A stretch of DNA of 40,498 nt from assembly GCA_913056355.1 (NCBI GenBank), contig CAJXMX010000004.1, positions 1-40,498 of the forward strand, written 5' to 3'. Source of the DNA: an uncultured Opitutales bacterium (GTDB lineage: Bacteria > Verrucomicrobiota > Verrucomicrobiia > Opitutales > Oceanipulchritudinaceae). The notes under the pieces were generated by a model. It had not been told where the DNA came from, did no database searches, and worked only from the letters and a program-made list of their open reading frames with translations. Of the stretch, positions 3 through 40,498 are shown piece by piece. The position numbers were made by a program, and so were the translations under genes. Each line of letters starts with the position of its first letter. Within the stretch, counting starts at the first letter, position 1.

Positions 3-2174
3 CGCAACGGCACCGCCGAGCCGCTCTATGGTATCGATTCCCTCGGCGATGCTCTGAACACCACCATCGACACGCCGGGCAACGTCATGGAGGCCATCAT
101 CAACGTCAGCGGCGCCTTGAAGAAGACCGCCATCCTGGAGCCCTTCAACCTGGCCGCCAGCGACATCGACTTCACCGGCGGCGGCACGGTCGCCTCGGAC
201 GACATTCTCTTCGGTGGCCTGGGCAACGACGCCATCCACGGCGGGCCGGGCGATGATGCCATCTCCGGCACCGAGGCCCTGGCAATTTACTACACCGTGG
301 CCCTCAACGGGGACCTCGTCACTCCGGTCAATCCCGGCGACATTCTCAGCTACAACAATCCGCGCGCCGGCGAGTTCGCCGCCTACGACGAGTACAATCC
401 GCTGCGCAAGGTCTATGTGGATGAAAACGGAATCTTCACCGATTCAGGAGCGGAATTCATTCTCAACTTTGATGATTTCGACGGTGACGGAAACGACGTC
501 CTCTTCGGCGATCTCGGCAACGACTGGATCGTCGGCGGCGAGGGCCGGGACCACCTCTACGGGGGCTGGGGCGACGACCTGATGAATGCGGATGACGTCC
601 TCGGCACCAACGGCGGTGAAAACGACGAGCCGGATACAGGCTCCAATTACGAGGACATCGCCTTTGGCGGGGCCGGTCGCGACATCCTGATCGCCAACAC
701 CGGTGGGGACCGCCTGGTTGACTGGGCCGGCGAGTTCAACAGCTACCTGGTTCCCTTCGCGCCCTTCGGACTGGGTACCGTCAGCCGCTCCCTGCAGCCG
801 CAGTTGGCCGACTTCCTTTACGATCTCTCCGAGAGCGACGGGGCCGATCCCACGCGCGTCACCAAGACCGGTGCCGATGCGGACCGCAACGGCGAGCCGG
901 AAGGCGAACTGGGCCTGGTCCGGCAGCAGGATCCCTGGTGGCAGGACCAGACCGGTGCCCCGGATGATCCGCAACCCGGCAACGTCCCCGGAGGCAAGCG
1001 CGATGTCATCCAGGCGGCCAGCTTCAACAGTGGCGACACCAACGGTTTCTTCATCGACAGCGGCGTCTGGACGGCCAATGCCGGCAAATACCTCGTCGCG
1101 CCGCTGATCAAGGGTGGGGACGCCCTCAGCGTCTATCATGTCGATGACTATATCCCGGCCTACTTCGAGATGAACGCCACCATCCGTCCGGAAAAGCCGG
1201 TGGCCGGCTTCAAGTCCAATGCCTATATCGTCTTTGATTACCAGAACGAACTGGATTTCAAGTTTGCCGGAATCAACGTTTCCACCAACAAGCTGGAAAT
1301 CGGCCATCGTGATGTCGACGGATGGCATGTCGATGTGCAGGGAGTCTACAAGGGTTCCCTCAAGGCCGATACCGCCTACAATGTTTTCCTCTCCCTCAAC
1401 GGGACCACGGTCACCCTGATCGTCAACAACCAGACTGTCCTCGACCACGTTTATGCCCCCCGGGTTGATGAGTACGGCATTCTGCACGGCTTCAACGACG
1501 GGCTGGTCGGTCTCGGCGCCAACAATGCCTTCGCTTCCATCGACAACCTGATGGTCCAGAAGCTGGCCCCGGAAGTTACCTTCACGAATCTGGAAGACTT
1601 CTCCGACGCGGAAACGAATCTTCTCCTGGCCCCCGAATCCGGCGCCTGGGCCCTCAACGGGGCCGCTTACCTGGGATCCGCCGATCCCGATGTGGCCGTC
1701 ACTCTCCTCAGCCCGCAGGTCGAGGCCGATTCCGTCATCCGCCTGACCGGTACGTTCGAGACTACCGGTGAAGCGGGTTACGTCTTCGACTATTACGGCC
1801 CGACTGACTACAAGTACGTCAGCGTTTCCGCCGGTTCGGGCGAGATCACCCTCGGGCACCGGACCTCCAGGGGTTGGTATACGGATGCCACCTTCCAGGA
1901 CGATTCCATCAGCCAGGGCGGTGTGGAGGACTTCAGGCTGACCCTCAAGGGCCGCACCGTCAGCGTCGAGTGGAAAGGACAGCCGGTCATCGGTTATGCC
2001 TACAACGCACTCGTCTCCGACGGGGCCACCGGCCTGCTCAGTGTCTACGGCGACAGTTCCTTCGACTCGATCCTTTACGAGACCAGCGACGGGAACCCGA
2101 TCCTGCCCACCCTTCGTCCCCTCGATGACTCCGGCCCCTCCTACCTGAGCATCTTTGACGTGAGCGAGCTTTAG
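3..2174 (+). CDS. RTX-repeat extracellular protein, C-terminal part (5' end outside window)
   Basis: The reading frame is open from base 3, so the N-terminus lies outside the window and the first ATG (87) is not a real start. Three glycine/aspartate-rich RTX-type blocks are visible: around bases 190-280 (GGLGNDAIHGGPGDDAISG), 480-600 (FGDLGNDWIVGGEGRDHLYG) and 655-720 (FGGAGRDILIANTGGDRL). They match the hemolysin-type calcium-binding nonapeptide pattern, which folds as a beta-roll on calcium binding outside the cell. After a linker (bases 720-1010), two tandem copies of a roughly 180-residue jelly-roll-like unit follow (about 1020-1560 and 1590-2150). Both copies carry the order 'FDYxxxxDxKxxxxxxxxxxxxxGHR...GW'. 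Such proteins are secreted adhesins or large surface proteins; the specific role cannot be told from this end. The next gene lies 130 bp away behind a hairpin. Confidence 0.85.
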   Translation, partial: RNGTAEPLYGIDSLGDALNTTIDTPGNVMEAIINVSGALKKTAILEPFNLAASDIDFTGGGTVASDDILFGGLGNDAIHGGPGDDAISGTEALAIYYTVALNGDLVTPVNPGDILSYNNPRAGEFAAYDEYNPLRKVYVDENGIFTDSGAEFILNFDDFDGDGNDVLFGDLGNDWIVGGEGRDHLYGGWGDDLMNADDVLGTNGGENDEPDTGSNYEDIAFGGAGRDILIANTGGDRLVDWAGEFNSYLVPFAPFGLGTVSRSLQPQLADFLYDLSESDGADPTRVTKTGADADRNGEPEGELGLVRQQDPWWQDQTGAPDDPQPGNVPGGKRDVIQAASFNSGDTNGFFIDSGVWTANAGKYLVAPLIKGGDALSVYHVDDYIPAYFEMNATIRPEKPVAGFKSNAYIVFDYQNELDFKFAGINVSTNKLEIGHRDVDGWHVDVQGVYKGSLKADTAYNVFLSLNGTTVTLIVNNQTVLDHVYAPRVDEYGILHGFNDGLVGLGANNAFASIDNLMVQKLAPEVTFTNLEDFSDAETNLLLAPESGAWALNGAAYLGSADPDVAVTLLSPQVEADSVIRLTGTFETTGEAGYVFDYYGPTDYKYVSVSAGSGEITLGHRTSRGWYTDATFQDDSISQGGVEDFRLTLKGRTVSVEWKGQPVIGYAYNALVSDGATGLLSVYGDSSFDSILYETSDGNPILPTLRPLDDSGPSYLSIFDVSEL

Positions 2175-2754: not shown

Positions 2755-4737
2755 ATGAAAGTAATCCTCTTCACGACATTCAATGACTGGTCGGAGCGAG
2801 TTGTCTCCCTGGGCTGGTCGCACTTTCTGCAGTTGGTGATCCTGGTGATCATCCTGCTCCTGATTGATGCCACCCTCGGCAAGCGCGTGGGCCCGCGCTG
2901 GCGGAGTGCCCTGTGGTTGATTTTCCTGGTCAAATTATTCCTCCCGCCGGGTCTTTCCCTCCCGACCAGCCCGGTTTACTGGTGGCCTGCGGAGACCGCC
3001 GCTGACCAGCCCCCGGCGGTGTCTCAGAATATCTCCCTGACCGGGCAGACGAACGGGGAGCATTGGAACACCGGCGATGATGCTTTAGCGGGTACCGCCG
3101 CCGCAGGGGCAGATTCCGGAGAAAGTGGAATTACCCCGGTCGTCAGTTGGCAGTCGGTCCTGGTCGGATGCTGGATAACCGGGGCGACGGTCCTTGGAAT
3201 CCTGACCATCCTCCGCCATCGGCGGCTGGTCAATTCCCTGGAGCTGTCGAGGCCTGCTGATTCCCGCCTGCGGGCAATCCATGCAGGAGCCTGCCGGGAC
3301 GCAGGCCTGGGATCGCCGGTAGACCTGCGGTTGACCCGGAACAAGCAAGGTCCCATGGTCGCCGGCATTTTCCGGCCCGTCATTTACCTGCCGGAATCCC
3401 TGGCCCGTCAGTATTGTGAGGAGAAGCTGTACGCGGTATTGCTCCATGAGGCCTTCCATGTGAAACGGGGAGACTTGTGGGTGGCCCTGGTCCAGGAAGT
3501 GGCCCGGGTTCTCTTTTTCCATCATCCCGCTGTCTGGTGGGTCAACGCCCGCTTGACTGCTCTCCGCGAAGAGGCCGTGGACCAGGCCGTCTTGTCCAAT
3601 CCACGGGTGGGGCGACAGGCCTACAGCATGTCCCTGGTTGAAGCGGCTGCCCAGAGCCTCTCCCCTCGTCAGCATTTTGCCATCGGTGTCGTCGAAACAA
3701 AAACACAACTCAAACACCGGATAGAAATGATCCTGCATCAATCCCGTCCCCGCCGCGTCAATCTCGGATACCGGGGCACCCTGTCCATACTGCTCATCGG
3801 CCTGGTACTGGTCCCGATGATGCCCGCCATCGCGGTGGTCGCCAAGACCACCGCTCCATCCAGCGAATTCCGGGAAATCGACCCGGCTCCGCTGAAGGAG
3901 CGCATCGATGCCACCGTTTCCGGCATCATGGATACCTTCAACCAGCGTGACCTCGATGGTTTTGTGAATTACTTCGACGACAAGCCCTTTGTCCTGGCCG
4001 AGGGATCGCCGCTCATCTCGGGCCGGGAAGGGGTGACGGAAATGTATCTCCAGTCGCGCAGTTCGATCTACGAGCCGATGCAACTGGCCGATCGCGGCTT
4101 CTACCGGATCGGGGACTGGATCGTCGAGACCGGCCTGTCCGGATTCAACTTCCGGCTCAGTCCCTCCGCTCCGGTCATGACGGATCCACGACAATTCATC
4201 ACCTTGTGGGAAGAGCAGGCTGACGGATCCCTGAGGGTCAAGCTGCTCTCCTGGAACAAGCTGGCCGACACGGGGAAATTGAATTCCCCGGGCCAAGCTG
4301 AAGGATTCGAGACAACCGGCAAGGAGGCTTCCTACTCGACCCAGGGAGACTTCGGTGAGGTGCTGGAAGCGGAGGAACTCTTTCATCGGGCCTTTCCCGA
4401 ACGCGACTTCGCCACCGCAGCCAGCTATTACGCGGATGGGGCCACCCTGGTCCTTCCGGAAAGGCTCCCCTTGCACGGTCGGGAGACCATTCTGGCCCAC
4501 CTCAAGGCCCAACTGCCCCAGGAAATCGCCGTCCGGGTGGAAAGGCAGCCGGTCCATGTCGAGGGAAACGGTCGTCACGTCCTGGTCATCAACCTCTTCC
4601 GCTGGACCTTTCAGCCCCCGAATGCCGCCCCTCCGGTAACCTTCACTGGCAAGGGCGTCCACATATGGGAACGCGGGGGGGACGGGTCGTGGAAGATCCT
4701 CTTTGACCTGCCCAATGGTACCGGTCCGGCCGGATGA
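2755..4737 (+). CDS. M56 (BlaR1-like) membrane metalloprotease with two C-terminal NTF2-like domains
   Basis: A 660-residue protein. Hydrophobic segments lie at about residues 22-41, 50-70, 128-152 and 342-364, bracketing a zinc protease domain with HEAFH (H231 and H235) and a downstream 'LREEAVDQAV' that should supply the third zinc ligand. This is the BlaR1/MecR1 layout, in which the protease faces the cytoplasm and inactivates the partner repressor, here the BlaI-like protein just upstream. The unusual part is the C-terminal region after the last membrane segment. In place of a penicillin-binding domain there are two SnoaL/DUF4440-like (NTF2 fold) segments, at about residues 380-505 ('DTFNQRDLDGFVNYFDD') and 533-655 ('HRAFPERDFATAASYYADGA'). 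Their presumably extracytoplasmic position suggests ligand sensing, but the ligand is unknown. The 3' end converges on the GH74 gene with a 130-bp gap in which I see no clear terminator. Confidence 0.85.
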   Translation: MKVILFTTFNDWSERVVSLGWSHFLQLVILVIILLLIDATLGKRVGPRWRSALWLIFLVKLFLPPGLSLPTSPVYWWPAETAADQPPAVSQNISLTGQTNGEHWNTGDDALAGTAAAGADSGESGITPVVSWQSVLVGCWITGATVLGILTILRHRRLVNSLELSRPADSRLRAIHAGACRDAGLGSPVDLRLTRNKQGPMVAGIFRPVIYLPESLARQYCEEKLYAVLLHEAFHVKRGDLWVALVQEVARVLFFHHPAVWWVNARLTALREEAVDQAVLSNPRVGRQAYSMSLVEAAAQSLSPRQHFAIGVVETKTQLKHRIEMILHQSRPRRVNLGYRGTLSILLIGLVLVPMMPAIAVVAKTTAPSSEFREIDPAPLKERIDATVSGIMDTFNQRDLDGFVNYFDDKPFVLAEGSPLISGREGVTEMYLQSRSSIYEPMQLADRGFYRIGDWIVETGLSGFNFRLSPSAPVMTDPRQFITLWEEQADGSLRVKLLSWNKLADTGKLNSPGQAEGFETTGKEASYSTQGDFGEVLEAEELFHRAFPERDFATAASYYADGATLVLPERLPLHGRETILAHLKAQLPQEIAVRVERQPVHVEGNGRHVLVINLFRWTFQPPNAAPPVTFTGKGVHIWERGGDGSWKILFDLPNGTGPAG

Positions 4738-4867: not shown

Positions 4868-7039
4868 CTATTCCGCCTCCGGGTCCCCGTAGAAGATGCC
4901 GCGGCCTCCCGTGCCCACGTAGACCCGGCCGAATACATTCTGGTCCGCGGCGATGGCCTTGAGGAGGTGGAACTGCAGGGCGTCGCTGTTGATGCGGACC
5001 CATGTAGTGCCCTGGTCGATACTGCGGAAGACGCCGTACTGGCCCGCCACCTCGCCTCCGAGGTAGAGGGTGGGGTAGTGGAAGGCCCGGAGCGGCTTGC
5101 CGAAGGCGATGCGGGTACCGGTCACTTCGCCCGGGGCGATGGCGGTCCACGTGCCGCCCCCGTCGGTGGAGCGCAGCAGTCCCGAGGGGCAGATCCGCCA
5201 CAGGTGGCCGGGTTGCCCCTGCACCGCGCGCAGGTCCCCTTTGCCGGGCAGGGTTTCGCCGACAACTTCAAACTGCTTCCCGTCGTCCGTGCTGCGGTAA
5301 ACTGTCCCGCTATCCGGATCCAGGGCGTAGAAGCGGTCCGGCAGGTAACGGTCGGAGCGGACCAGCACCCTTTCCGGAAGCCCCGCGCAGGTTTCCCAGG
5401 TCCGGCCGCGGTCCCGGGTCACGATCGATCCGGATTCCCGCGGGGTCCAGATCCAGGTGGCGCCGCTGGAGGATACCGCCACCTTGCCTTCCCCGGTCGA
5501 GCTCCCGGGGGCCTCGAAAACGGTCCAGCTGCGGCCGTTGTCTTCCGACCAGGCGCCGTTTTTCCCGGAGATGCGGACCACGATCTGCGGGTCCAGTTCT
5601 GCGTAATCCAGTCCGGTGGTATGCCCGAAGTGCGGCTGGAAGGAGCCGGCCTGCGGGCTGGTATCCAGATTTTCATGACGAAAGCCGCCGGTGTCCCACA
5701 TGGAGCTGAGCAGCGGCGCGCCCGAGGCCGGGGAGCACAGCTCGTTGATCACCGTCTCCTCGATGCCCCGGGCCCGGACGGTCCAGTGGGTGGGCCGCTC
5801 CTCGTCGGCAGCCGTCAGGTCGTCGGTTCCCCAGATGCCCATCCCCGTGATGTAGAGCGCATGGTCGGAATCAAAGGGGTCGATCCCGACGTCCCCGATC
5901 CAGTGTCCCAGTTCCACCTCCGGCTTGCCGAACTTGATGAACTGCACCTCTCCCTCGTCGTGCTCGGCGGTCGGCCCGAGCCGGGTCCAGGACTCCCCGC
6001 CATCGGTGCTCCTGAAGAGCTCGTCATGGTACTTCCAGCGACAGATGGTGCTCACCAGAAGGGTGCCCGGGCGGAGCTTGTCGATCCCCAGGCCGGCGTA
6101 GCCAAACCGGTCGTCGCGGGCCGGAACCAGCGGGGTGATGTTGGTCCACGCCTCCGTCGACGGATTGTACTTCCAGACGGCCCCGTAGATGATGTCGTTC
6201 GGCCCCGCTCCGCTGGAGTAGGTGATATAGAGGTTCCCGTCCGGGCTGAAGCCCGTCTGGTGCGGAACCAGTCCCTTGGGCTGGCCCTCGACCTGGCTCC
6301 AGCTGGTTCCGTTGTCGTCGCTGCGCCAGAGGGCCCCGTCCGGACTGGAAACGACCACCCACACCGCATCGCTCTCCGGGGAGAATTCAATGTCGATCAA
6401 ACCCACCCCCCCGGTGTCCACCGGGATGGGAAAGGATTCCACCTGGCTCCAGCTGGCTCCGTGGTCAACGCTCCGCCACAACCCGTCGTGCCGGGTGCCC
6501 AGGTACAGCTCCTCCGGCCGGGCCGGGTTCACCGCCAGACGCTCCCCGTTGGACCGGCCCGGCTCGTTGGCACCGAACTTGAAGGGCATCGGCGTCCGCT
6601 TCCAGGTCGCCCCGCGGTCCTCGCTGCGCAGGATGGCCCCGTTGCCCGACCAATCGTTGGTGTAGGAGCCCGCCGCCAGGTAGACCCGGTCCGGATCCGC
6701 GGGGTCCAGGGCCAAACTCTCGATCCCGGTCAGCGTCCAGTCCTCTTCCGAAAGGTCGTCGTTGAGGGGAATCCAGCGTCCGCCCGCTCCATCCCAGCGG
6801 TAGGCCCCCCCGACGTCCGTCCGGGCATAGACCAGGCCGGGCTCGGCGGGATGGAAAACAATCCCGGTGACAAATCCGCCGCCGGTGATGGTCACGTTCT
6901 TCCAGGCATAGGGGATCGCCTCCACCGGGTCCGCTTCCGCCTGCCCGGAGGCTGGCGCCCCGGCCGTCAGGATGATTGCCGCCGCCAGTGCCGTCAGGGC
7001 CGTGCAGACCCGTTTCACGATCGCATGTTGCCTCTTCAT
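4868..7039 (-). CDS. Exported GH74 xyloglucanase / xyloglucan-specific endoglucanase
   Basis: A 723-residue protein beginning at the ATG at 7037-7039, which has an AGGA Shine-Dalgarno about 7 bases upstream and is followed by a signal peptide (MKRQHAIVKR, then a hydrophobic run to about residue 33). Longer in-frame starts up to 7147 would put a charged tail before the signal peptide and are rejected. The protein is built of sialidase/BNR-like 'S.D.G.TW' repeats, as in the two seven-bladed propellers of GH74. Both catalytic regions are present: 'ARTDVGGAYRW' (D75) and 'WDTGGFRHENLD' (D449), matching the general base and acid of characterised GH74 enzymes. GH74 enzymes cut the beta-1,4-glucan backbone of xyloglucan. 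The gene is divergent from an alpha-xylosidase, which supports xyloglucan as the substrate. Endo versus exo mode cannot be decided by eye. Confidence 0.93.
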   Translation of the reverse strand: MKRQHAIVKRVCTALTALAAAIILTAGAPASGQAEADPVEAIPYAWKNVTITGGGFVTGIVFHPAEPGLVYARTDVGGAYRWDGAGGRWIPLNDDLSEEDWTLTGIESLALDPADPDRVYLAAGSYTNDWSGNGAILRSEDRGATWKRTPMPFKFGANEPGRSNGERLAVNPARPEELYLGTRHDGLWRSVDHGASWSQVESFPIPVDTGGVGLIDIEFSPESDAVWVVVSSPDGALWRSDDNGTSWSQVEGQPKGLVPHQTGFSPDGNLYITYSSGAGPNDIIYGAVWKYNPSTEAWTNITPLVPARDDRFGYAGLGIDKLRPGTLLVSTICRWKYHDELFRSTDGGESWTRLGPTAEHDEGEVQFIKFGKPEVELGHWIGDVGIDPFDSDHALYITGMGIWGTDDLTAADEERPTHWTVRARGIEETVINELCSPASGAPLLSSMWDTGGFRHENLDTSPQAGSFQPHFGHTTGLDYAELDPQIVVRISGKNGAWSEDNGRSWTVFEAPGSSTGEGKVAVSSSGATWIWTPRESGSIVTRDRGRTWETCAGLPERVLVRSDRYLPDRFYALDPDSGTVYRSTDDGKQFEVVGETLPGKGDLRAVQGQPGHLWRICPSGLLRSTDGGGTWTAIAPGEVTGTRIAFGKPLRAFHYPTLYLGGEVAGQYGVFRSIDQGTTWVRINSDALQFHLLKAIAADQNVFGRVYVGTGGRGIFYGDPEAE

Positions 7040-7120
7040 GGGGCCATTCCTAATCAAACCGGCTCCCGGAACGCAACCCCGGCTTCGCCGATGTTCCCAC
7101 TTGTTCCTCCCGTGGCGGTG

Positions 7121-7176
7121 ATTTTTGTTTGACTTTAAAGGGATCACGAAGCTTTGATTTAACCTTAAATTTTGAA
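7121..7176. promoter_or_regulatory. AT-rich divergent promoter zone between GH74 and GH31 genes
   Basis: The 209-bp gap 7040-7248 separates the divergent GH74 and alpha-xylosidase genes. Its middle holds an AT-rich patch in GC-rich surroundings. It contains TTGACT (7129-7134), the palindrome CTTTAAAG (7133-7140) and three TTTGA words starting at 7128, 7153 and 7171. These are plausible promoter or operator parts for both directions, but no confident -35/-10 pair with 17-bp spacing was found. No regulator gene lies in the cluster. Confidence 0.35.
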
Positions 7177-7248
7177 CGGGGGAAGGACCTGTCGAGAGGA
7201 TCCGGACCCCGGCTCCCGAGACCCAACCCCACCCAGAACCAGACGCCC

Positions 7249-9522
7249 ATGAAATTCACCGATGGCCAGTGGTTGCACCGACCCGGAATCACCGCACATT
7301 ATCCAGCGGAAGCCTATGACATCAGCGCGGAAAAGGACCGTCTGGTCATCCACGCGCCGACGCGGCCGATCAAGCACCGCGGGGACACCCTGCAGGGACC
7401 GCTGCTGACGATCACGCTGAGTTCCCCGCTGGAGGGGGTGATGCGGGTCCGGATCGAGCATTTCACGGGCGGGGCGCAGGCGGGGCCGGAGATTCCCCTG
7501 CAGGTGACGGGCGATGCCGGAGTCCGCATCGAGCGGGACGAGGAGTCGACCCGGATCCACTCCGGGGAGTTGTCGGCCCGGGTCTCGCAGAAGAACGGCT
7601 GGGAGCTGAGCTTCGAGTCCGGGGGCGAGCTGCTGACCAAAAGCGCCTGGCGGGGCATGGGCTACATCCAGCACGAGGACGGGGGCACCTATGTCCATGA
7701 GCAGCTTTCCATCAGGGTCGGGGAATCCGTCTACGGGCTGGGCGAGCGTTTTACGGCATTCGTGAAGAACGGCCAGGTCATCGAGAACGACAACAAGGAC
7801 GGGGGGACGGGTTGCGAGCAGGCCTACAAGAGCGTGCCCTTCTACATGACCAACCGGGGCTACGGGGTCCTGGTCAACGAGACCGGTCCGGTTTCCTTTG
7901 AGATCGCCTCTGAGAAGGTATCCCGGGTGCAGTTCAGCATTCCCGGGGAAAGCCTGGAATATTTTGTCATCGCCGGCCCCACGCCGAAGGACGTGCTGCG
8001 CCGCCTGACGGCGCTGACCGGACGTCCGGCGCTGCCCCCGGCCTGGTCCTTCGGCCTGTGGCTCTCGACCTCCTTCACCACCAACTACGACGAGGCGACC
8101 TGCACGAAGTTCATCGAGGGGATGGAGGAGCGGGACCTGCCGGTGCACGTGTTCCATTTCGACTGCTTCTGGATGCGGGAGTTCGACTGGTGCAATTTCG
8201 AATGGGATCCGCGGGTCTTCCCGGACCCGGGCGCCATGCTCAAGCGGTTCCACGAACGCGGCCTGAAGATCTGCGTCTGGATCAATCCCTACATCGGGCA
8301 GCGCTCGCGGCTCTTCGCCGAGGGGGTGGAAAAGGGCTACTTCATCAAGCGGACCGACGGCGGGGTCTGGCAGACGGACCTCTGGCAGCCGGGCATGGCC
8401 ATTGTGGACTTCACCAATCCGGAGGCCAGGGAATGGTATGCCTCGCACCTGCGCGGTCTCCTGGAGATGGGCGTGGACGCGCTTAAAACCGACTTTGGCG
8501 AACGCATTCCCACCGAAGGGGTGGTCTACCATGACGGCTCCGACCCGGTGAAGATGCACAACTTCTACAGCATTCTCTACAACGAGTGTGTCTTCGACCT
8601 GGTCCGCGAAATCCGCGGCGAGGGCGAGGCGGTGCTCTTTGCCCGCTCCTCCTACGCTTCCGGACAGCGCTTCCCGACCCACTGGGGAGGCGACTGCTGG
8701 TCCAATTTCGAATCCATGGCCGAGAGCCTCCGCGGCGGCCTCTCCCTCAGCCTGTGCGGCTTCGGCTTCTGGAGTCACGACATCGGCGGCTTCGAGGGAC
8801 CCTCCCCGGCCAGCACCTACAAGCGCTGGGCGGCCTTCGGCCTGCTCTCCTCCCACAGCCGTTTGCACGGCAGCACCAGTTACCGCGTGCCCTGGGTCTA
8901 TGATGAGGAAGCCAGCGACGTGCTGCGCCTCTTCACCAAGCTCAAGTGCCGCCTGATGCCCTACCTGTGGGCGGCCGCGGTCACGGCCCATCGGGAAGGG
9001 ATCCCGACAATGCGGGCCATGATGCTGGAGTTCCCCGGCGATCCGGCCTGCGACAATCTGGACCGGCAGTACCTGCTGGGCGGTTCGCTGCTGGTGGCCC
9101 CGGTTTTCTCGGAGGACGGATCGGTCGATTACTATCTGCCGGCCGGTCGCTGGACCCATCTCCTGACCGGCGAGGTCCGGGAAGGAGGCCGCTGGTACCG
9201 GGAGACTTATGAATGCCTTTCGCTGCCCCTGTTTGTCCGGCCCGGCACCGTCCTGCCGATGGGGGGTTGCGATGACCGTCCCGACTACGAATACAGCAAG
9301 GAACTGACCCTCCGTCTATATGAACTGGAGGATGGACAAAGCGCCTCCTGCCAGCTGCACGACCTGCAGGGCCGGCCATCGGCCACTGTCACGGCCACCC
9401 GCAAGTCCGGCAAGGTGGTCCTCGATATCGAGGGGAACCTCAAGGGGGCCACCGTGGAAATCGTCGGCGGGCCCAGCGCGCAGTTGCCAGACGGCGCCAA
9501 ACAGTTTGAATTGAACCTCTAA
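7249..9522 (+). CDS. yicI: GH31 alpha-xylosidase (YicI-like), cytoplasmic
   Basis: A 757-residue protein starting at the ATG at 7249; an upstream in-frame ATG (7129) would add 40 residues of non-conserved sequence lying in the promoter zone. There is no signal peptide, so it acts in the cytoplasm. The nucleophile motif 'KTDFGERIP' places Asp at residue 415, and the acid/base motif 'GGDCWSNFESM' places Asp at 482, almost the same numbering as E. coli YicI (D416 and D482). The N-terminal beta-sandwich precedes the (beta/alpha)8 barrel from about residue 260, and C-terminal beta domains follow. YicI-type enzymes release alpha-1,6-linked xylose from isoprimeverose and xyloglucan oligosaccharides. 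The next gene, a GH3 enzyme, starts 42 bp downstream, so they are probably one operon with the symporter. Confidence 0.93.
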   Translation: MKFTDGQWLHRPGITAHYPAEAYDISAEKDRLVIHAPTRPIKHRGDTLQGPLLTITLSSPLEGVMRVRIEHFTGGAQAGPEIPLQVTGDAGVRIERDEESTRIHSGELSARVSQKNGWELSFESGGELLTKSAWRGMGYIQHEDGGTYVHEQLSIRVGESVYGLGERFTAFVKNGQVIENDNKDGGTGCEQAYKSVPFYMTNRGYGVLVNETGPVSFEIASEKVSRVQFSIPGESLEYFVIAGPTPKDVLRRLTALTGRPALPPAWSFGLWLSTSFTTNYDEATCTKFIEGMEERDLPVHVFHFDCFWMREFDWCNFEWDPRVFPDPGAMLKRFHERGLKICVWINPYIGQRSRLFAEGVEKGYFIKRTDGGVWQTDLWQPGMAIVDFTNPEAREWYASHLRGLLEMGVDALKTDFGERIPTEGVVYHDGSDPVKMHNFYSILYNECVFDLVREIRGEGEAVLFARSSYASGQRFPTHWGGDCWSNFESMAESLRGGLSLSLCGFGFWSHDIGGFEGPSPASTYKRWAAFGLLSSHSRLHGSTSYRVPWVYDEEASDVLRLFTKLKCRLMPYLWAAAVTAHREGIPTMRAMMLEFPGDPACDNLDRQYLLGGSLLVAPVFSEDGSVDYYLPAGRWTHLLTGEVREGGRWYRETYECLSLPLFVRPGTVLPMGGCDDRPDYEYSKELTLRLYELEDGQSASCQLHDLQGRPSATVTATRKSGKVVLDIEGNLKGATVEIVGGPSAQLPDGAKQFELNL

Positions 9523-20814: not shown

Positions 20815-20844
20815 CATTTGTAACAAATGCGTCACTTTTGTAAC
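20815..20844 (+). promoter_or_regulatory. Palindrome and 20-bp-spaced repeats at the TonB receptor start
   Basis: CATTTG-TAA-CAAATG (20815-20829) is a dyad with perfect 6-bp arms. The word TTTGTAAC occurs at 20817-20824 and again at 20837-20844, exactly 20 bp apart (two helical turns). The dyad's last three bases are the ATG of the TonB receptor gene. This looks like a regulator binding site overlapping translation initiation; the regulator is unproven, and the SorC-type protein at 27083 is the nearest candidate. Confidence 0.5.
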
Positions 20845-23800
20845 CCACTCCTGCCAAAGCGTCACCTCTTCGTTATATTTGCCTTGCTCGGGGCCGCAAC
20901 CTTGGCTTCCGGGGCGGAGATCCGCGGGCGCGTCTATGATTCCACCAACGCCATCTACCTGGAAGGCGCGCGAGTCGTCCTCCGGGAGACGGGGGCCCAG
21001 ACCACATCGGAGCGCTCGGGTTACTTTTCCTTCGGAGGGCTTGATGCCGGAATCTACACGGTCACGGCCTCGGCGGTGGGATATCCGCAGACCAGCAAGA
21101 CGGTCAGCCTTTCCGAAGACGTCAACGTGACCGACCTGGTCATCGACATCGGGGACGAGACGGTCTTCGAGATGGAAGCCTTTGAAGTAACGGGATCGGT
21201 TGTCGGCACGGCCAAGGCGCTGAACCAGCAGCGCACGGCCGACAACCTGCAGAGCATCGTCTCCTCGGACGCCTTCGGGCAGTTTGTCGACCGCAACGCG
21301 GCGGAAGCGCTGCAGCGCCTGCCGGGGGTCACCGTGGAGGACAGCCAGGGGGAAGGGAAGTACCTGATCATCCGCGGGGCCAATCCGACTTGGAGCACGG
21401 TCAGCATCGACGGGATCGAGCTGGCCACTCCGGATGAGAACGGCCGCTCCATCGGCCTCAACATCATCACCGTGGACCAGCTGGAATCGGTCGAGGTGAC
21501 CAAGAGCTGGACCCCCGACATGAAGGCCGGATTTGTCGGCGGCAATGTCAACATGAAGACCCGCTCGGCGCTGGACAGCGGCCGGATGTTCGCCTCCATC
21601 GAGGGAGCCTACGGATTCTACGACATCTCGGAGGAGGAAAGCTGGCGGGGCTCGGCGACCTTCGGGGATGTCTGGGAATTCGGGTCGGGCAAGCGCGCCC
21701 TGGCCTTCCAGGTCTCCGTCAACCAGTCGGAGGACAACCGGGGCTCGGATTCGCTGACCCACGGCTGGTCGCTGATCACCGATTACCCGCTGGATGACGC
21801 TCCCTGGGGCCTGGCCGTCAGTTCCACCGACATGGAGGACTACCGCATCAAGCGCGAGCGGATCGGGGTCAGCAGCAAGGTTGAATTCAGGATCGCCCCG
21901 GGCCATGTCATCAGTGCCTCCATCAGCTACAACAAGTTCGATGACAAGGAAATCGTCCAGGAGGCGAATTTGAGTTCGCCCATCTCGCCGGTAAATTTCC
22001 GGGGCAACGCGCGCCTCACCGAGGCCATCGCCATCCAGTTGGGGCTGGATCCCGAATCGCCGGAAGTGGCCTCCCGGATCAACTCCACGGACAATTGGGA
22101 GCTCCGTTTCGAGGAATCGATCGCCATCGGGGAGACCGCCTACGACTGGGACACCCGTACCTACACCTACGGGAAACAGTGGGACGGCAGCATTGGCCGG
22201 CGGTTTGAACACAATGTCACCAATGACGAAATCCTGACCTATTCACTGGGCGGCGTTCACAATTTCTCTTCCTTTTTCAAGGCGGAATGGAAAGCCTATT
22301 CCACCGAGGCGGACAAGACAAACCAGGAACTCGGATTGAGCTTCGGGGGCCGGCAGGTGACGACCATCCGCGTTGCCGGAGACGATCCGGAAGTTGCCCG
22401 GCTGTTCCTGCCCGGGGAACACCTCGAATACTTCACGGATCCGGAGAGCTACTATATCACCAGGACCCTGGGTACCCTGCTGGACAACAGTTACCACAGT
22501 ACGGACCAGCGCGAGGGCGGTGACCTGGACCTGACCTACATTCTCGACGTTGGCTCGGCCAACCTGTCCACCCGGATCGGGGCCAGTTACGATGCCCGGG
22601 ACAAGTCCTACAACCGCGATTTCTCAAGGCTTTCGGGAAACAAGATCCTCGACCGCGACCTTTATCCCAACGGGGAATTGCGCCTCAGTCAGGTTGATCT
22701 CTATGCGGGCCAGCTCGATGATTTCCTGTATGATTACGGTTCCGGTGACGGATACGAGTTCGGGCCGAGCTTCGACGACCAGCGGATGCTGGACTTTTTC
22801 GAAGACCCTGCCTCCTACGGAATCGAATTCGGGCAGAACAACAGTGACGTCACCTATCAGGTCACCAACGCCGTGCTGCGGGATTACCTGGCCACGGAGG
22901 ATATCCTCGGGGCGTACTTCATGGAAACCTTCGACTGGAAGGGCTGGACCCTGATTCTCGGGGTCCGCTACGAGGAGACGGAGAACAGCTTCACCAATAA
23001 CGAGATCATTACCCGGACGGAAACCGGAGCCTTCATCAGGCCCAGCAGCTGGCCCTACCGCCCGGTCGAGACATACTCCCAGCCCGTTACTTCGACCAAG
23101 AAGTATGACCACTGGCTGCCGGCTGTTCATCTGAAAAAGACCTTCGGCGAGGACTGGGTCTTCCGGGCCAGCGTCACCAAGACCCTGACCCGCCCGCTCT
23201 TCACCGACCTTGTTCCCAGCGAGATCCCGTCGTTTACAAGTAGTTACAATTTCAGTACAAGTGTCGAGCTCCCGAATTTCGAGCTGCGCCCGATGGAGTC
23301 GGTCAACTACGACCTTTCCCTGCAAAAGTATTTCGAGAATGTCGGATACCTGAACGTGTCGGTCTTCTACAAGGACCTGGACGGGGCCATTTATGATGAG
23401 ACCCGCGAGGTGGAGCCGGGGGAGGAGACACGGCCCTATTACGAGAAGTACGACAGCCTGAGCACTGACCCCAACCATAGTGACAACGACCGTTGGAATT
23501 TCTCCCGCAAAGCCAATACCGGGGCCGGGCAGTTGTACGGGATCGAGCTGGCCTTCGACCGCAATTTCGATTTTCTCGGCACCTGGGCGGAGGATTTCGG
23601 ATTCAGCACCAATTTTACCCTCATGGAATCCGAGGTGGAATTGACCTTGAAGGAGCGCCTGGGCGAAAAAGTCCCACTCTTCAAGCAGCCTGACAGCATT
23701 TTCAATTTCTCCATTTTCTACGAGACCAAGAAGATCTTTGCCCGCCTGAGCTACAATCTCCGCGGCAAGTACCTGCAAAGTGTCCGGGGAGGATCCTTGG

Positions 23801-24042
23801 TCAAGGAACTGGAGGGTCCCCAGATGGAGCTCACCCCCGACGCCCTGGACACCTGGGTCGACGATTATGGCCGCCTGGACTTCAACATCCGCTGGAAGGT
23901 CACCAAACACTTCCAGATTTTTGCAGAAATCACCAACATCACCAACGAGCCCATCCAGCAGTTCCGGGGGAGCGAAATCCGACCGACCCTGGTCCGCTAC
24001 ACCGGTCCCATCTACTTCATCGGGGCCAAGTGGAACCTTTAA
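20827..24042 (+). CDS. TonB-dependent receptor with N-terminal carboxypeptidase-regulatory-like domain
   Basis: A 1071-residue outer-membrane receptor. Residues 1-29 are a signal peptide (the hydrophobic stretch ends at 'LASGA') and about 31-105 form a CarboxypepD_reg-like beta domain ('IRGRVYDSTNAIYLEGARV'). A TonB-box-like 'FEMEAFEVTG' lies at 114-123, and the plug spans about 130-250 ('RNAAEALQRLPGVTVED', 'IIRGANPTWSTVSIDGIEL'). The 22-strand barrel follows and ends in 'GAKWNL'. An in-frame TAA at 20821 makes ATG 20827 the first possible start; there is no Shine-Dalgarno and the ATG sits in a palindrome. No SusD-type partner follows; instead a lamin-tail protein starts 18 bp downstream. 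Lying between glpQ/glpT and glpD, it probably imports a phosphodiester or larger precursor, but the ligand is unknown. Confidence 0.93.
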   Translation: MRHFCNPLLPKRHLFVIFALLGAATLASGAEIRGRVYDSTNAIYLEGARVVLRETGAQTTSERSGYFSFGGLDAGIYTVTASAVGYPQTSKTVSLSEDVNVTDLVIDIGDETVFEMEAFEVTGSVVGTAKALNQQRTADNLQSIVSSDAFGQFVDRNAAEALQRLPGVTVEDSQGEGKYLIIRGANPTWSTVSIDGIELATPDENGRSIGLNIITVDQLESVEVTKSWTPDMKAGFVGGNVNMKTRSALDSGRMFASIEGAYGFYDISEEESWRGSATFGDVWEFGSGKRALAFQVSVNQSEDNRGSDSLTHGWSLITDYPLDDAPWGLAVSSTDMEDYRIKRERIGVSSKVEFRIAPGHVISASISYNKFDDKEIVQEANLSSPISPVNFRGNARLTEAIAIQLGLDPESPEVASRINSTDNWELRFEESIAIGETAYDWDTRTYTYGKQWDGSIGRRFEHNVTNDEILTYSLGGVHNFSSFFKAEWKAYSTEADKTNQELGLSFGGRQVTTIRVAGDDPEVARLFLPGEHLEYFTDPESYYITRTLGTLLDNSYHSTDQREGGDLDLTYILDVGSANLSTRIGASYDARDKSYNRDFSRLSGNKILDRDLYPNGELRLSQVDLYAGQLDDFLYDYGSGDGYEFGPSFDDQRMLDFFEDPASYGIEFGQNNSDVTYQVTNAVLRDYLATEDILGAYFMETFDWKGWTLILGVRYEETENSFTNNEIITRTETGAFIRPSSWPYRPVETYSQPVTSTKKYDHWLPAVHLKKTFGEDWVFRASVTKTLTRPLFTDLVPSEIPSFTSSYNFSTSVELPNFELRPMESVNYDLSLQKYFENVGYLNVSVFYKDLDGAIYDETREVEPGEETRPYYEKYDSLSTDPNHSDNDRWNFSRKANTGAGQLYGIELAFDRNFDFLGTWAEDFGFSTNFTLMESEVELTLKERLGEKVPLFKQPDSIFNFSIFYETKKIFARLSYNLRGKYLQSVRGGSLVKELEGPQMELTPDALDTWVDDYGRLDFNIRWKVTKHFQIFAEITNITNEPIQQFRGSEIRPTLVRYTGPIYFIGAKWNL

Positions 24043-24060: not shown

Positions 24061-26817
24061 ATGAAAACCAACCGCCTAATACACACAGCCTTAGCCTTTG
24101 CCGGACTGGGAGTCGCCTCCCTCCAGGCACAGGATATCGTCCTGAAACTACAGGAAAGCTTTGAAACGGACGGACTCCTGGAGAACCCGCCCAGGTATAC
24201 CGTCGAGAATATGAACACCGAGAGCAGCAACAGCCGCTATTTCGAGCGCCGCATCATTCCCTCGGAAGGGGTTGGCGCCAGCGGCGGCGTCTACGATGGC
24301 GACTACATCTGGGGCGGCCGCGGCATCAACTACGGCACCGTCGAGGACCTGAGTGCCAACGAGGGCCGCATCACCTTTCCCGTGATCGACATCAGCGATG
24401 TGGGAAACGTCTTCGTTGAAATCGCCGTCGCCGAAGGCGGGGCGGAATTTGAAGGCAACAATATCTTCTACCTCGAGGCCAGTGTCGACGGGGCTCCCTG
24501 GCAGGTCATCGGCGGATTCCGCTCCACGGGAACGAATACCTCGGCGAGGTATTTCCAGGGGGACGAAACCGTGGTCACGACTCTGGACGATCCCCGGCTT
24601 TCGACGACCTTCTACGATTTCGGATGGGACCTCTTCGAGTCCGGCAACAGCCTGCAGCTCCGGATCATGATCAATGTCAATGCGATCGCCGAGCAGTACT
24701 ACTTTGACAATATCCGTGTCTACGGGGACGCCAGCCTGACCAACCTGAACGCTTCCACCGACGCTTCCGAGTATGCCGAGCCGGCTGGAGACGGAAGCAC
24801 TCCGGCCACGCTGACCCTGACCCTGGGCAAGCCCGCTCCGGCTGGGGGCCAGTCCATCAACCTGATCCTCGATGGCGAGCTGATGCGCAGTACCGACCTC
24901 CCGGAATCCGTGATGGTCAACGAAGGGGAAACAAGCCTTCAGGTGCCCTTCAATATCCTTCAGGACGGCCAGTACACCGGCCAGAAGAAGATGATCCTGC
25001 AATTTACCGGCGAAGGTCTTGGCCGCGAACAGGTCACTTTCTACGTCAACAATTCGACCCCCCGGCCCGATGTGATTGTCACGGAAATCCTCAGTGCGCC
25101 TCCGTCCGATGGCGGTGGCACCCCGGATGACCTTTCCGGCGACACCAATGGGGACGGCGTCCGTGACGGTTCCGGTGACGAATTTGTGGAAATCGTCAAT
25201 TTTGGATCCGAGCCCGTCGACATTTCCGGCTACACCCTGGCCGACGCGCTGCAGATCCGCCATGTATTTCCCGAAGGAACGATCCTCAAACCGATGCGCT
25301 CAGCCGTTGTGTGGGGGTCCGGCAATCCGGTGGGCGTCTTTGGCGGGGCCCAGACCTTCGTCGCCGACGCCGGCAGCCTGGCGCTGAACAACTCCGGTGA
25401 CACGCTCACCTTCTCCGCCCCTTACGGACAGGTTATGGAAACCAAGGTCTTCGACGCCACCTGGGGCCAGGCGCCCCTCGGTTCGCGCCACCGCGGCAAC
25501 ACCCTGGAATCGGAATTCGTCCTTCACCAGGACATTCCAGAGGCCAACGGGGCCGCCTTCTCCCCGGGAACCCTTCCTTCAGGAGAACCCTTCGGCACCT
25601 TCGCCAACACCCTCACGATTCAATTGGACGCAAATGAACTGGAAGAGTCGGCCGCCCCCATCATGGGAACGGTCCAGCTCCAGTCCCCGGCCCCTGCGGG
25701 CGGGCTGGTCATCCAGATAAATACGGACGGCTGGATTCTCCAGGGTGATGGAACTTATGTGCCCGACGAGTTATCCCTCTCCACCACTGAATTGATGGTC
25801 CCTGAAGGACAGAGTTCGGCCAGCTTCGAGATCACGCCATTTGATGACGGGATTCTCGACGGGGACAAACTGGTCCGGATCGTCGCCTCGGAAAGCGACG
25901 ACGTTCTTCCGGGATTGGTCACCCTCACCATCCTGGATGTTGCCCCCAATCCCTACAACCTGGTTATCAACGAAATCCTCTCGGATGTGGAAGGCACCGG
26001 CCTCGATCCCAATCTCAACGGCGTCTTTGAAGAGACCCTTGAGGACCAGTTCGTGGAAATCCTCAACCTGGGGACCGACCCGGTGGACCTGTCCGGATGG
26101 GCCCTGCACGCCCGGAGGCTGTCTGACGTTTCCGGCAACACGCTCGCCCACGTATTCCCGGCCGGAACGATCATGGCCGGTGAAAGCGCCATGGTCATTT
26201 TCGGGGGAGGGGATATGATCGGCGATGAGCCGAATTCCAACCTGGTCCCGGATTCATTCGGGGGCGCCTATGTCCAGACCGCCAGGATCGCCAATGGGAA
26301 TGCCAACGTCAACGGCGTCAATCTTCCCACTGGAGGACCGGAAATGTACCTCGAACTGATGAATCAGCATGGATTCGTCATCAACCGCCTGGACCTGGTT
26401 GAGGGAATGACCAACCAGGGAAGCTCGGTCGTCCTCTATCCTGAGGGAACCGGGGAACCGGCCCTGCACTTCGGGGTTTCGCAATCCTTCTCGCCGATGA
26501 GTCCGGGCCTGGATCTCAGCGACAGTCCCTTCCCGGGATCCAACGACACCTACTTCTGGATGAATGCGGCCTTCCCGGGAATCGCCCTCACCGGCGAGGC
26601 TCCCCTCGATGCCGGGGTCTTCGGGTTTGTCACGGTCGGCATGTATCCCTACGTGTACATGCACAGCACCGATTCATTCTGGTACATCTACGGGGATGTC
26701 GGCGGCACTTTCTATGCCTACGACTTCACCGCCGGGGAATGGATTGCCACCGGCGACGATTACTTCCCCTACGCCTATCTCCTCGAGACCGGCGACTGGA
26801 TGTATCTGGGCCACTAG
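24061..26817 (+). CDS. Exported double lamin-tail-domain protein with aromatic C-terminal module
   Basis: A 918-residue protein with a signal peptide (MKTNRLIHTALAFAGLG then 'SLQAQ'). Order of parts: a jelly-roll-like region (about 25-225); a Calx-beta/Ig-like segment (about 228-330); a first lamin-tail domain (about 335-455, 'DVIVTEILSAPPSDGGG', 'DEFVEIVNFGSEPVDISGYTL'); a second Calx-beta-like segment (about 520-628); a second lamin-tail domain (about 630-775, 'YNLVINEILSDVEG', 'DQFVEILNLGTDPVDLSGW'); and an aromatic tail (about 860-918) with two units of the type 'YPYVY......W'. Bacterial lamin-tail domains occur on secreted nucleases and phosphatases, but this protein has no catalytic domain I can see. 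It starts 18 bp after the TonB receptor and ends before a strong terminator, so the two are co-transcribed. It may be a surface-bound ligand-capturing partner of the receptor; that role is inference. Confidence 0.82.
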   Translation: MKTNRLIHTALAFAGLGVASLQAQDIVLKLQESFETDGLLENPPRYTVENMNTESSNSRYFERRIIPSEGVGASGGVYDGDYIWGGRGINYGTVEDLSANEGRITFPVIDISDVGNVFVEIAVAEGGAEFEGNNIFYLEASVDGAPWQVIGGFRSTGTNTSARYFQGDETVVTTLDDPRLSTTFYDFGWDLFESGNSLQLRIMINVNAIAEQYYFDNIRVYGDASLTNLNASTDASEYAEPAGDGSTPATLTLTLGKPAPAGGQSINLILDGELMRSTDLPESVMVNEGETSLQVPFNILQDGQYTGQKKMILQFTGEGLGREQVTFYVNNSTPRPDVIVTEILSAPPSDGGGTPDDLSGDTNGDGVRDGSGDEFVEIVNFGSEPVDISGYTLADALQIRHVFPEGTILKPMRSAVVWGSGNPVGVFGGAQTFVADAGSLALNNSGDTLTFSAPYGQVMETKVFDATWGQAPLGSRHRGNTLESEFVLHQDIPEANGAAFSPGTLPSGEPFGTFANTLTIQLDANELEESAAPIMGTVQLQSPAPAGGLVIQINTDGWILQGDGTYVPDELSLSTTELMVPEGQSSASFEITPFDDGILDGDKLVRIVASESDDVLPGLVTLTILDVAPNPYNLVINEILSDVEGTGLDPNLNGVFEETLEDQFVEILNLGTDPVDLSGWALHARRLSDVSGNTLAHVFPAGTIMAGESAMVIFGGGDMIGDEPNSNLVPDSFGGAYVQTARIANGNANVNGVNLPTGGPEMYLELMNQHGFVINRLDLVEGMTNQGSSVVLYPEGTGEPALHFGVSQSFSPMSPGLDLSDSPFPGSNDTYFWMNAAFPGIALTGEAPLDAGVFGFVTVGMYPYVYMHSTDSFWYIYGDVGGTFYAYDFTAGEWIATGDDYFPYAYLLETGDWMYLGH

Positions 26818-31387: not shown

Positions 31388-31530
31388 GCCGGTCGCCCCG
31401 GACCTTCCCCATTAGATCCCTTAACCGGCAGCCCTCGTTTCATGTAATTCACTTATATGTCACCCCGTCTTCAATTGTATAAAATTAATTACACTTGCAT
31501 TCCCCGGGCAGGGAATTAGAAATTGCCCTT

Positions 31531-32226
31531 ATGCAGACCAGATACTCATTCCTCTTCACCACTTTTGCGGTAATCCTCATGGCCGTACCGGGTTTCGGCC
31601 AGATCATGATCACCGAAATCATGTACAATGCAGCCGGCACGGACACCGGCTTTGAATGGGTTGAGGTCTTCAACGCCGGGCCCTCCGCGGAGGATATCAG
31701 CGGGTGGAAAATTCGCGACGAGGATTCCAACTCTGCAAACTGGGGCGAGTTTCCGGCCAGCACCATGTTGAATCCCGGACAAGTCCTGATCATGACCCAG
31801 TCCAGCGAGGCGGACTTCAAGGCCGCCTGGCCCACCGCCACTGACGCCATCATTTACACAACTGCCGACTGGGGTTCCATCGCCAACACGGTGGACACCA
31901 TCGACAATGAAGTCCTGACCCTGCTCGATGATCTCGACGCCACCGTTGACGTCGCCAATTACCTGACCATTTCCCCATGGCCGGAAGGGGTCAACGGTTC
32001 TTCCATCTATGTCATTCCGGGGGCGATCGATCCGACCAGCAACGACGACGGGGCCAACTGGCTGGCTTCCGTGGTCGGTATGGACGGCGCGGTCAATCCG
32101 GTGGCGATTTACGACCTGGGCAACATCGGTTCCCCGGGCGTCGTGGTCGTTCCTGAGGTTTCCACGTACGCCCTTCTGCTGGGACTCTTCTCCCTGGTTG
32201 GAGTAATGATTCGCCGTCGCCGTTGA
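31531..32226 (+). CDS. Lamin-tail-domain protein with PEP-CTERM sorting signal
   Basis: A 231-residue protein; ATG 31531 is preferred since it opens directly into a signal peptide (MQTRYSFLFTTFAVILMAVP). A single lamin-tail domain spans about residues 25-170 ('MITEIMYNAAGTDTGFEWVE', 'FNAGPSAEDISGWKIRDED'). The last 25 residues are a PEP-CTERM tail: 'VPEVSTY', a hydrophobic helix and 'RRRR'. PEP-CTERM proteins are processed by exosortase and are usually surface or exopolysaccharide-associated. The 143-bp gap 31388-31530 upstream is AT-rich with a possible -10 TATAAA (31478-31483) but no convincing -35, so it is probably its own transcription unit. It is closed by a strong terminator. Function beyond the surface location is unknown. 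Confidence 0.88.
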   Translation: MQTRYSFLFTTFAVILMAVPGFGQIMITEIMYNAAGTDTGFEWVEVFNAGPSAEDISGWKIRDEDSNSANWGEFPASTMLNPGQVLIMTQSSEADFKAAWPTATDAIIYTTADWGSIANTVDTIDNEVLTLLDDLDATVDVANYLTISPWPEGVNGSSIYVIPGAIDPTSNDDGANWLASVVGMDGAVNPVAIYDLGNIGSPGVVVVPEVSTYALLLGLFSLVGVMIRRRR

Positions 32227-39544: not shown

Positions 39545-40498
39545 TCATCTTTCACCCCGGAGGGCAATGATGACCAGCGAATGGGGCGGCAGTTGCCTTT
39601 TGACGGTGGGCCCGTCCAGCGGCACCGATTCGTCCACCGGCTGGACCGACGCGTCCCGGCCGGGCTCGTTGACCGCGTCCGGGTCGCCGGCCAGGGTGGT
39701 GATGGTCGCTGAATCGGGGAGGGCGGCGTTTGAATCGAGGATCAGGTTCAGTACCACCGGCTCGCTGGCCGGGTTGACCAGCTTGATGAAGCGATTTCCG
39801 GACCTGCTGTCGCGGACGACTGAAAACATAGGGCCGGCCCCCCTGATGTCCGTGGTGGCGGCCAGCAGTTGATCCCCGCGGCTTTCGGCGAAGAGCTGCT
39901 GCACCGTGTAGCTGATCGTTGGATACACCGATTCGTTGTCGAAATAGACAAGGTCGGGATTCCACTGGGTGCGGCCGATCTTGCCCAGCAGGGGCGCGTA
40001 GGAGGCCATGCGGACGATGTCCCCGTTGCGTTCCAGGGCGGTCATGAAGGCCGCCTCGGCCAGGGCCGCCCGCAGGGTGCGGCGGCGGTGATCATCATGG
40101 GCCGCATACTCGCCGAGGTAGACAGCCGGGCCGGAGCGGTCGTAGCTGTCGTAACGCCCGAGGTTCTCGAGGAACCACTGGGGATCGCGGTAGAAATGCT
40201 CGTCGACCATTTCCAGGTCCAGCTCGCGGGCGATCCGCCAGCCCTTCTCGAAGTCCTCCCCGTCCGGGAAGGGACCGACGGTGCCGATGACGACGATCTC
40301 GGGATGCGCTTTCTGCAAGGCGTCGTAAATCATCCGGAAACGTGTCTTGAATCCGGGTGTGATCTTGTCCTCGTTGCCGACGCCGAGGTACTTGATTCCG
40401 AAGGATTCAGGGTGGCCGGACGCCGCGCGGACGGAGCCCCACTGGGAGTCGGCCGGCCCGTTGGCCCACTCAATCAGGTCCAGGAGATCCTGAATATA
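39545..40498 (-). CDS. GH51 alpha-L-arabinofuranosidase, C-terminal part (N-terminus outside window)
   Basis: The minus-strand frame is open to the right edge of the window (at least 317 residues), so the ATG at 40333 is internal. The visible part begins inside the catalytic barrel: 'WANGPADSQWG' then 'IKYLGVGNEDK', the GH51 acid/base motif with Glu. 'VYLGEYAAHD' follows, carrying the nucleophile Glu. The C-terminal jelly-roll domain ends 'LPPHSLVIIALRGER'. GH51 enzymes release alpha-L-arabinofuranose from arabinoxylan, arabinan or arabinosylated xyloglucan. It converges on the cupin gene. Whether the enzyme is exported cannot be seen, since the N-terminus is missing. Confidence 0.92.
   Translation of the reverse strand, partial: YIQDLLDLIEWANGPADSQWGSVRAASGHPESFGIKYLGVGNEDKITPGFKTRFRMIYDALQKAHPEIVVIGTVGPFPDGEDFEKGWRIARELDLEMVDEHFYRDPQWFLENLGRYDSYDRSGPAVYLGEYAAHDDHRRRTLRAALAEAAFMTALERNGDIVRMASYAPLLGKIGRTQWNPDLVYFDNESVYPTISYTVQQLFAESRGDQLLAATTDIRGAGPMFSVVRDSRSGNRFIKLVNPASEPVVLNLILDSNAALPDSATITTLAGDPDAVNEPGRDASVQPVDESVPLDGPTVKRQLPPHSLVIIALRGER

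Follow-up and report, generated by a model that had tools for sequence, protein, structure and literature searches.

The BlaI-M56 gene pair and its control region

The window analysed in this study is the entire contig C4 (40,498 nt) of a draft genome of 4.3 Mb in 425 contigs, 96.8% complete, and it carries near its start a pair of genes on the forward strand. The first, at 2305-2712, encodes a BlaI/MecI-type winged-helix repressor of 135 amino acids (Penicillinase_R, PF03965, 8.8e-34; 116.7 bits against a cut-off of 22.6), which aligns over its full length with Staphylococcus aureus BlaI (1sd4, 6e-14) and also with 1okr; the BlaI-type repressor that the initial annotation had placed ahead of the protease is indeed there. 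After the stop codon and 42 bp, the second ORF (2755-4737) encodes an M56 protease of 660 amino acids with a tandem NTF2-like tail, as identified by Pfam and by a full-length homologue in Opitutaceae bacterium EW11. Profile searches of the 4.3-Mb draft returned one BlaI and one M56 protein in total; a second, weak M56 match proved by its sequence to be an HtpX/M48-like protein and so was not counted as M56.

Upstream, the window harbors an RTX-repeat ORF (87-2174, forward strand, 695 aa) with calcium-binding nonapeptide repeats (HemolysinCabind 2.3e-16), which ends about 90 bp before the operator, and downstream lie a convergent BNR/sortilin-like repeat gene and then a GH31 glycosidase (4868-9522). 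Together with a PA14-bearing GH3 gene and an MFS sugar transporter farther along, and an arabinofuranosidase fragment at 39548-40333, the genes at 4868-9522 make up a carbohydrate-use region. A TonB-dependent receptor with a carboxypeptidase-regulatory domain is found at 20827-24042, followed by Lamin Tail Domain proteins at 24061-26817 and 31495-32226 and by an endonuclease/exonuclease/phosphatase-family protein. The idea of an adjacent effector was rejected, as the flanking genes are the RTX-repeat ORF and the convergent BNR/sortilin-like gene and neither is present beside the EW11 pair; this agrees with the earlier remark that no obvious effector gene adjoins the protease. No conserved partner gene was found beside the pair in the neighbourhoods of the window genome and EW11.

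A putative operator precedes the repressor gene. Dyad 1 (CGACATTTGTCG, 2270-2281) reads CGACA-TT-TGTCG, with an ACA-N2-TGT core at the repressor's own promoter, and has a counterpart upstream of blaI in EW11 (TTCGACAAATGTCGAA). A degenerate dyad 2 (CGACATCCATAG, 2290-2301), agreeing at 7 of 10 positions, lies 20 bp from dyad 1, and its EW11 counterpart (CTACCTATGTCG, 8 of 10 positions) keeps the identical 20-bp offset and was also found at three mismatches. Read by eye, a candidate promoter on the forward strand (2262-2290), which we treat as a lead, consists of TTGACG (2262-2267) and TATAAC (2285-2290) on either side of a 17-bp spacer filled by dyad 1; the consensus promoter scan omits it because that scan demands T as the last -10 base, and no equally good -10 was seen at the corresponding place in EW11. 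Since TACA-N2-TGTA dyads occupy this position in the other BlaI-M56 pairs that we surveyed, the window operator appears to be an ordinary BlaI operator with one base changed per half-site.

The genome search for CGACA-N2-TGTCG proposed in the initial annotation gave a single perfect copy (CGACANNTGTCG) in the 4.3 Mb, namely dyad 1 at the pair. With the extended pattern TTCGACAWWTGTCGAA, no further site was found in the same genome at up to two mismatches, and at three mismatches 22 more places were obtained (reversed-pattern control, 11), the majority within genes. A three-mismatch site that closely precedes a PhoD-like phosphatase gene (L082) has no EW11 counterpart and was treated as chance. 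A second perfect site in EW11 lies within a long ORF, and two perfect sites in G006, a genome of the window's family, lie within long open frames; these were likewise set aside. Because the sole perfect dyad stands at the pair, with dyad 2 only 20 bp away and a layout alike in EW11, the operon is most likely autoregulated, with the putative operator confined to the pair. The regulon had been expected either elsewhere or limited to the pair itself; the one perfect site speaks for the latter, whereas the former found no convincing sites, and the operator pattern search of the 4.3-Mb draft detected no regulon beyond the pair. Any wider regulon would need weaker sites, and a target could also be missing from the 425-contig draft.

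The protease core and its C-terminal tail

The M56 domain (residues 24-326; 2824-3732, forward strand) was recognized by the Pfam profile Peptidase_M56 (PF05569) at E=1.1e-37 and 130.3 bits, against a curated cut-off of 31. The zinc-binding and catalytic residues H231-E-A-F-H235 and E272-x-x-x-D276 (3445-3582, forward strand) lie in invariant columns of the alignment with 42 M56 relatives, among which the equivalents of H231, E232, H235, D240, E272, D276, Y290 and R322 never vary. These motifs match H201EXXH and E242XXXD of the BlaR1 cryo-EM structure, in which Tyr261 and Arg294 are the equivalents of Y290 and R322 (PMC9834060), and F308, in the loop ahead of R322, is possibly the counterpart of the BlaR1 autocleavage residue Phe284. 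Four membrane segments stand out by hydropathy, at about residues 24-42, 51-69, 135-153 and 345-363, of which the fourth lies beyond the M56 domain, and the flanks hold four Lys/Arg after segment 1, none after segment 2, four after segment 3 and five before segment 4. From hydropathy and these positive-inside charges, we predict a BlaR1-like topology with the N-terminus outside, the protease inside and the C-terminus outside. With intact catalytic residues and this charge pattern, the BlaR1-like character first ascribed to the zinc protease and its membrane segments holds, while the NCBIfam BlaR1 equivalog model (NF000326) gives 86.7 bits and does not reach its cut-off of 400.

The C-terminal ~280 residues consist of two NTF2-like domains, as had been claimed from the outset in terms of two SnoaL/DUF4440-like folds. 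Domain 2 (residues about 530-656; 4342-4722, forward strand) is NTF2-like by its sequence: in the whole protein, Pfam places DUF4440 at 536-648 (E=1.9e-15, in two stretches), the halves of the tail searched separately with DUF4440 gave 1.4e-12 for the C-terminal and 0.0083 for the N-terminal half, and domain 2 by itself scored 48.4 bits with DUF4440 against a curated cut-off of 25.2 and 8e-9 with SnoaL_2. The tail profile matched 3hx8 in the PDB at 2e-8. Domain 1 (residues about 378-507; 3886-4275, forward strand) is weak by sequence, and its modelled NTF2 fold is supported by hhalign against domain 2 (E=9.4e-5, probability 59%), by the match of the first-half profile to the ketosteroid-isomerase-like chain 3d9r (4e-4), and by a tail model, built on two sequences, in which domain 1 has a pLDDT of about 70-86 over most of its length with its elements in NTF2 order. 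Residues 1-133 of this model, that is, domain 1 only, matched known structures of the NTF2-like fold with Z reaching 15.0 (129 residues, rmsd 2.7), and CaMKII-hub and G3BP1 structures were among the matches. Structure prediction of the tail thus bore out the expected fold for domain 1, but the domain 2 model is poor (pLDDT about 50-60) and was barely covered by the structure comparison, so that its fold assignment is made by sequence. An AF2 model of the full 660 residues from one sequence had a pLDDT of 37 and was set aside.

Neither KTG nor KSG was found in the tail sequence, and the sole SxxK (499) is not conserved, so that nothing points to a sensor acylated in the penicillin-binding manner. 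In place of the class-D-beta-lactamase-like sensor with SxxK and KTG that characterizes BlaR1/MecR1, the tail is DUF4440/NTF2-like, which upholds the claim that the penicillin sensor is missing. Its proposed position outside the cytoplasm is likewise supported, being predicted from the positive-inside topology and from a stand-alone homologue of the tandem whose start resembles a signal peptide.

NTF2-like domains may serve as enzymes or in dimerisation, and not just as sensors. The tail might dimerise or dock proteins in the manner of NTF2 proper and the CaMKII hub, and what it senses would then be a partner protein or the state of the envelope and not a small molecule. NTF2-like folds are often hubs, two such structures (the CaMKII hub and G3BP1) appear among our structural matches, and BlaR1 acts as a dimer (PMC9834060), but no conserved partner gene lies beside the pair in either genome and a fold match cannot separate a pocket from an interface; we regard this reading as distinctly improbable.

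Relatives of the fusion and the range of M56 tails

A genome-collection scan disclosed a full-length relative in EW11, with 46% overall identity (43% across residues 5-660, its best segment), which is likewise preceded by a BlaI gene, so the search for further M56 proteins with the same tail succeeded. The presence of the same full-length protein in EW11 shows that the fusion did not arise through misassembly. The two BlaI proteins share 60% identity, and for the M56 proteins identity is 48% over the protease core, 44% over the first NTF2 domain and 53% over the second, by which the tail appears to be conserved about as well as the protease across two genera. Divergent from the EW11 pair, with some 300 bp between it and the operator, lies a gene for a small lipoprotein-like TonB_C protein (L010:4847-5224, reverse strand).

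Comparatively few other genomes carry anything similar. The full-length profile, with the best three or fewer candidates scored per genome, gave end-to-end matches in 2 of 388 genomes of the phylum, those of the window and EW11 (G176), and with the tail profile 4 of the 373 genomes searched in the order matched, one of them through a single short domain, as did 3 of 368 in the phylum. A weak tail match in G001 was a 130-aa single-domain DUF4440-like protein and was rejected as a relative of the fusion. The pair is absent from three congeners and from most of the family and order searched, and no relatives of the tail were found in the viral contigs and plasmids scanned. This patchy spread, with the unshared neighbours, fits transfer or repeated loss. 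Patchiness would also suit a decaying or silent remnant that has no current function, but the frames are open, the catalytic residues are intact, tail and protease are equally conserved across two genera, and the operator is conserved in EW11, which leaves a remnant very improbable.

In G006, the tandem tail stands alone as a protein of 349 aa (L026:8638-9687, reverse strand; 47-49% identity), encoded between quinone-reductase-like and maltose O-acetyltransferase-like genes. Its hydrophobic, signal-peptide-like start can be aligned to the fusion's last membrane helix and reads RNPMILHLRA against RIEMILHQSR before that helix in the window. The stand-alone tandem may have been excised from a fusion, although the direction is not proved, and it lends independent support to a module that would work outside the cytoplasm. 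Profile searches of this genome, in which the best three or fewer M56 candidates were scored, found no BlaI and no fused M56 protein.

These observations bear on the strongest of the rival explanations, in which the tail is an output and not a sensor: a module shed by signal peptidase, or a membrane binding protein or enzyme, with BlaI-M56 proteolysis doing no more than metering its own expression. The sole convincing operator is the pair's own, the tandem in G006 begins with what resembles a signal peptide in a genome where neither BlaI nor a fused M56 was found, and so would have a use of its own, and an AxA-like stretch follows the last helix in EW11, while BlaR1 is cut by signal peptidase just past its last helix (PMC9834060). 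However, most M56 proteins have an extracytoplasmic tail and that of BlaR1 serves as a sensor, no enzymatic function was identified for the tail, and the tandem on its own in G006 may serve a different purpose. We consider this explanation unlikely. A variant, to which we give somewhat less credence, is that the NTF2 tandem is an exported binding protein tethered to its own switch, in which case a single polypeptide would combine the roles of protease, sensor and, when severed beyond the last helix, effector; its only target would be the BlaI operon, and elsewhere the module would be used as a free secreted protein.

Tails other than penicillin sensors are widespread on M56 proteins. The Pfam tails of the 42 relatives, from Verrucomicrobiota and some others, include CarboxypepD_reg (6), GWxTD (6), a penicillin-binding transpeptidase (3 of 42) and many other types once each, and DUF4440 was present in EW11 only; most proteins of the verrucomicrobial set lack a penicillin sensor. 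In the acidobacterial M56 proteins (n=126, loci L092-L221), tallied for the best 25 of 48 and 49 families, commonest first, TonB_C was found in 36 of the 126, and SLT transglycosylase, TPR, HEAT and DUF3738 were among the families listed. TonB_C, being the commonest acidobacterial tail among those families, may be compared with the divergent TonB_C gene in EW11, and this acidobacterial range is apparently little described. Our tail profiles gave one weak match among the same 126 proteins, and outside the 25 families listed a single NTF2-tailed protein may be present. Exchange of the M56 C-terminal module is therefore usual in Verrucomicrobiota and Acidobacteriota, and because non-penicillin tails are usual, what sets this protein apart is the NTF2 identity and the rarity of its tail. 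The initial annotation had seen the oddity in NTF2-like domains replacing a penicillin sensor; the tandem itself merits this description (2 of 388 genomes), but the loss of the sensor does not, as it is usual in both phyla. The tandem NTF2 tail on a BlaI/M56 pair is thus rare and of moderate novelty.

Proposed signal relay and comparison with known systems

We favor, with moderate confidence, a signal relay of the BlaI/BlaR1 type that is confined to one autoregulated operon and has a different receiver; with the two NTF2-like domains in place of a penicillin sensor, the pair probably answers to a different, presumably non-beta-lactam signal. In this relay, a BlaI dimer would hold the operon down until a ligand, probably a small molecule, enters one or both NTF2 pockets; the ligand-bound tail would then shift the last membrane helix, by analogy with the action of a beta-lactam in BlaR1, and the shifted helix would free the cytoplasmic protease. 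The protease would cut BlaI near His108-Leu109, a candidate site in the BlaI C-terminal domain, and this cleavage would derepress the operon. The first output would be more of the sensor pair, because a convincing operator stands at no other gene.

With regard to the cut site, BlaR1 directly cleaves BlaI between Asn101 and Phe102 after the sensor moves towards the membrane, and the Phe is described as almost invariant (PMC9834060). The staphylococcal Asn101-Phe102 position corresponds to His-Leu, with Leu as the P1' residue, in the window BlaI (His108-Leu109) and in the EW11 BlaI, and the repressor alignment reveals that Phe is kept there in many verrucomicrobial BlaIs. By group, this position reads His-Phe in many verrucomicrobial repressors, and most of those from Acidobacteriota and planctomycetes have x-Ala-Leu. 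The Leu in place of a near-invariant Phe, though many verrucomicrobial BlaIs have Phe, counts against the relay, as do the enzymatic and dimerisation roles open to NTF2-like domains; moreover, without a second target the switch lacks a clear purpose.

To our knowledge, BlaR1-type receptors have nearly always been treated as antibiotic sensors. The pair, together with the wide range of M56 tails, presents the protease-cuts-repressor module as a general chassis with exchangeable receivers, and its compactness, one clear operator, defined extracytoplasmic module and soluble homologue make it a tractable case for a non-beta-lactam signal.

In common with BlaR1/BlaI and MecR1/MecI of Staphylococcus aureus and Bacillus licheniformis, the window pair displays a BlaI-fold repressor, an M56 gluzincin with HExxH and ExxxD, a predicted four-helix N-out/C-out membrane arrangement, an extracytoplasmic C-terminal module and promoter dyads. 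It differs from them in that the tail consists of two NTF2-like domains with no penicillin-binding sensor, no beta-lactamase or PBP gene lies beside the pair, the half-site is CGACA and not TACA, and the mapped BlaI cut position holds Leu and not Phe. The verrucomicrobial and acidobacterial M56 proteins (TonB_C, TPR, HEAT, SLT, CarboxypepD_reg, GWxTD, DUF3738) likewise have an extracytoplasmic and mostly non-penicillin tail, and those examined for neighbours adjoin a BlaI-type gene as in the window; their tails are of other folds, however, the tandem NTF2 tail having been seen only in the window and EW11. No description of an NTF2-like/M56 fusion was found in the literature searched, the coverage of which was partial. 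In the part of Eberhardt et al. 2013 considered here (PMC3924330), DUF4352-M56 proteins are reported, in which an extracellular putative ligand-binding domain is joined to M56, and ligand sensing is proposed for extracytoplasmic NTF2-like DUFs fused to signalling domains; DUF4352 is a different family from the window tail, and that part makes no mention of an NTF2-like/M56 fusion. Finally, the DUF4440/SnoaL-like proteins 3hx8 and 3d9r resemble the window tail domains in fold and sequence, but they are single-domain proteins, whereas the window protein carries two copies on a membrane protease.
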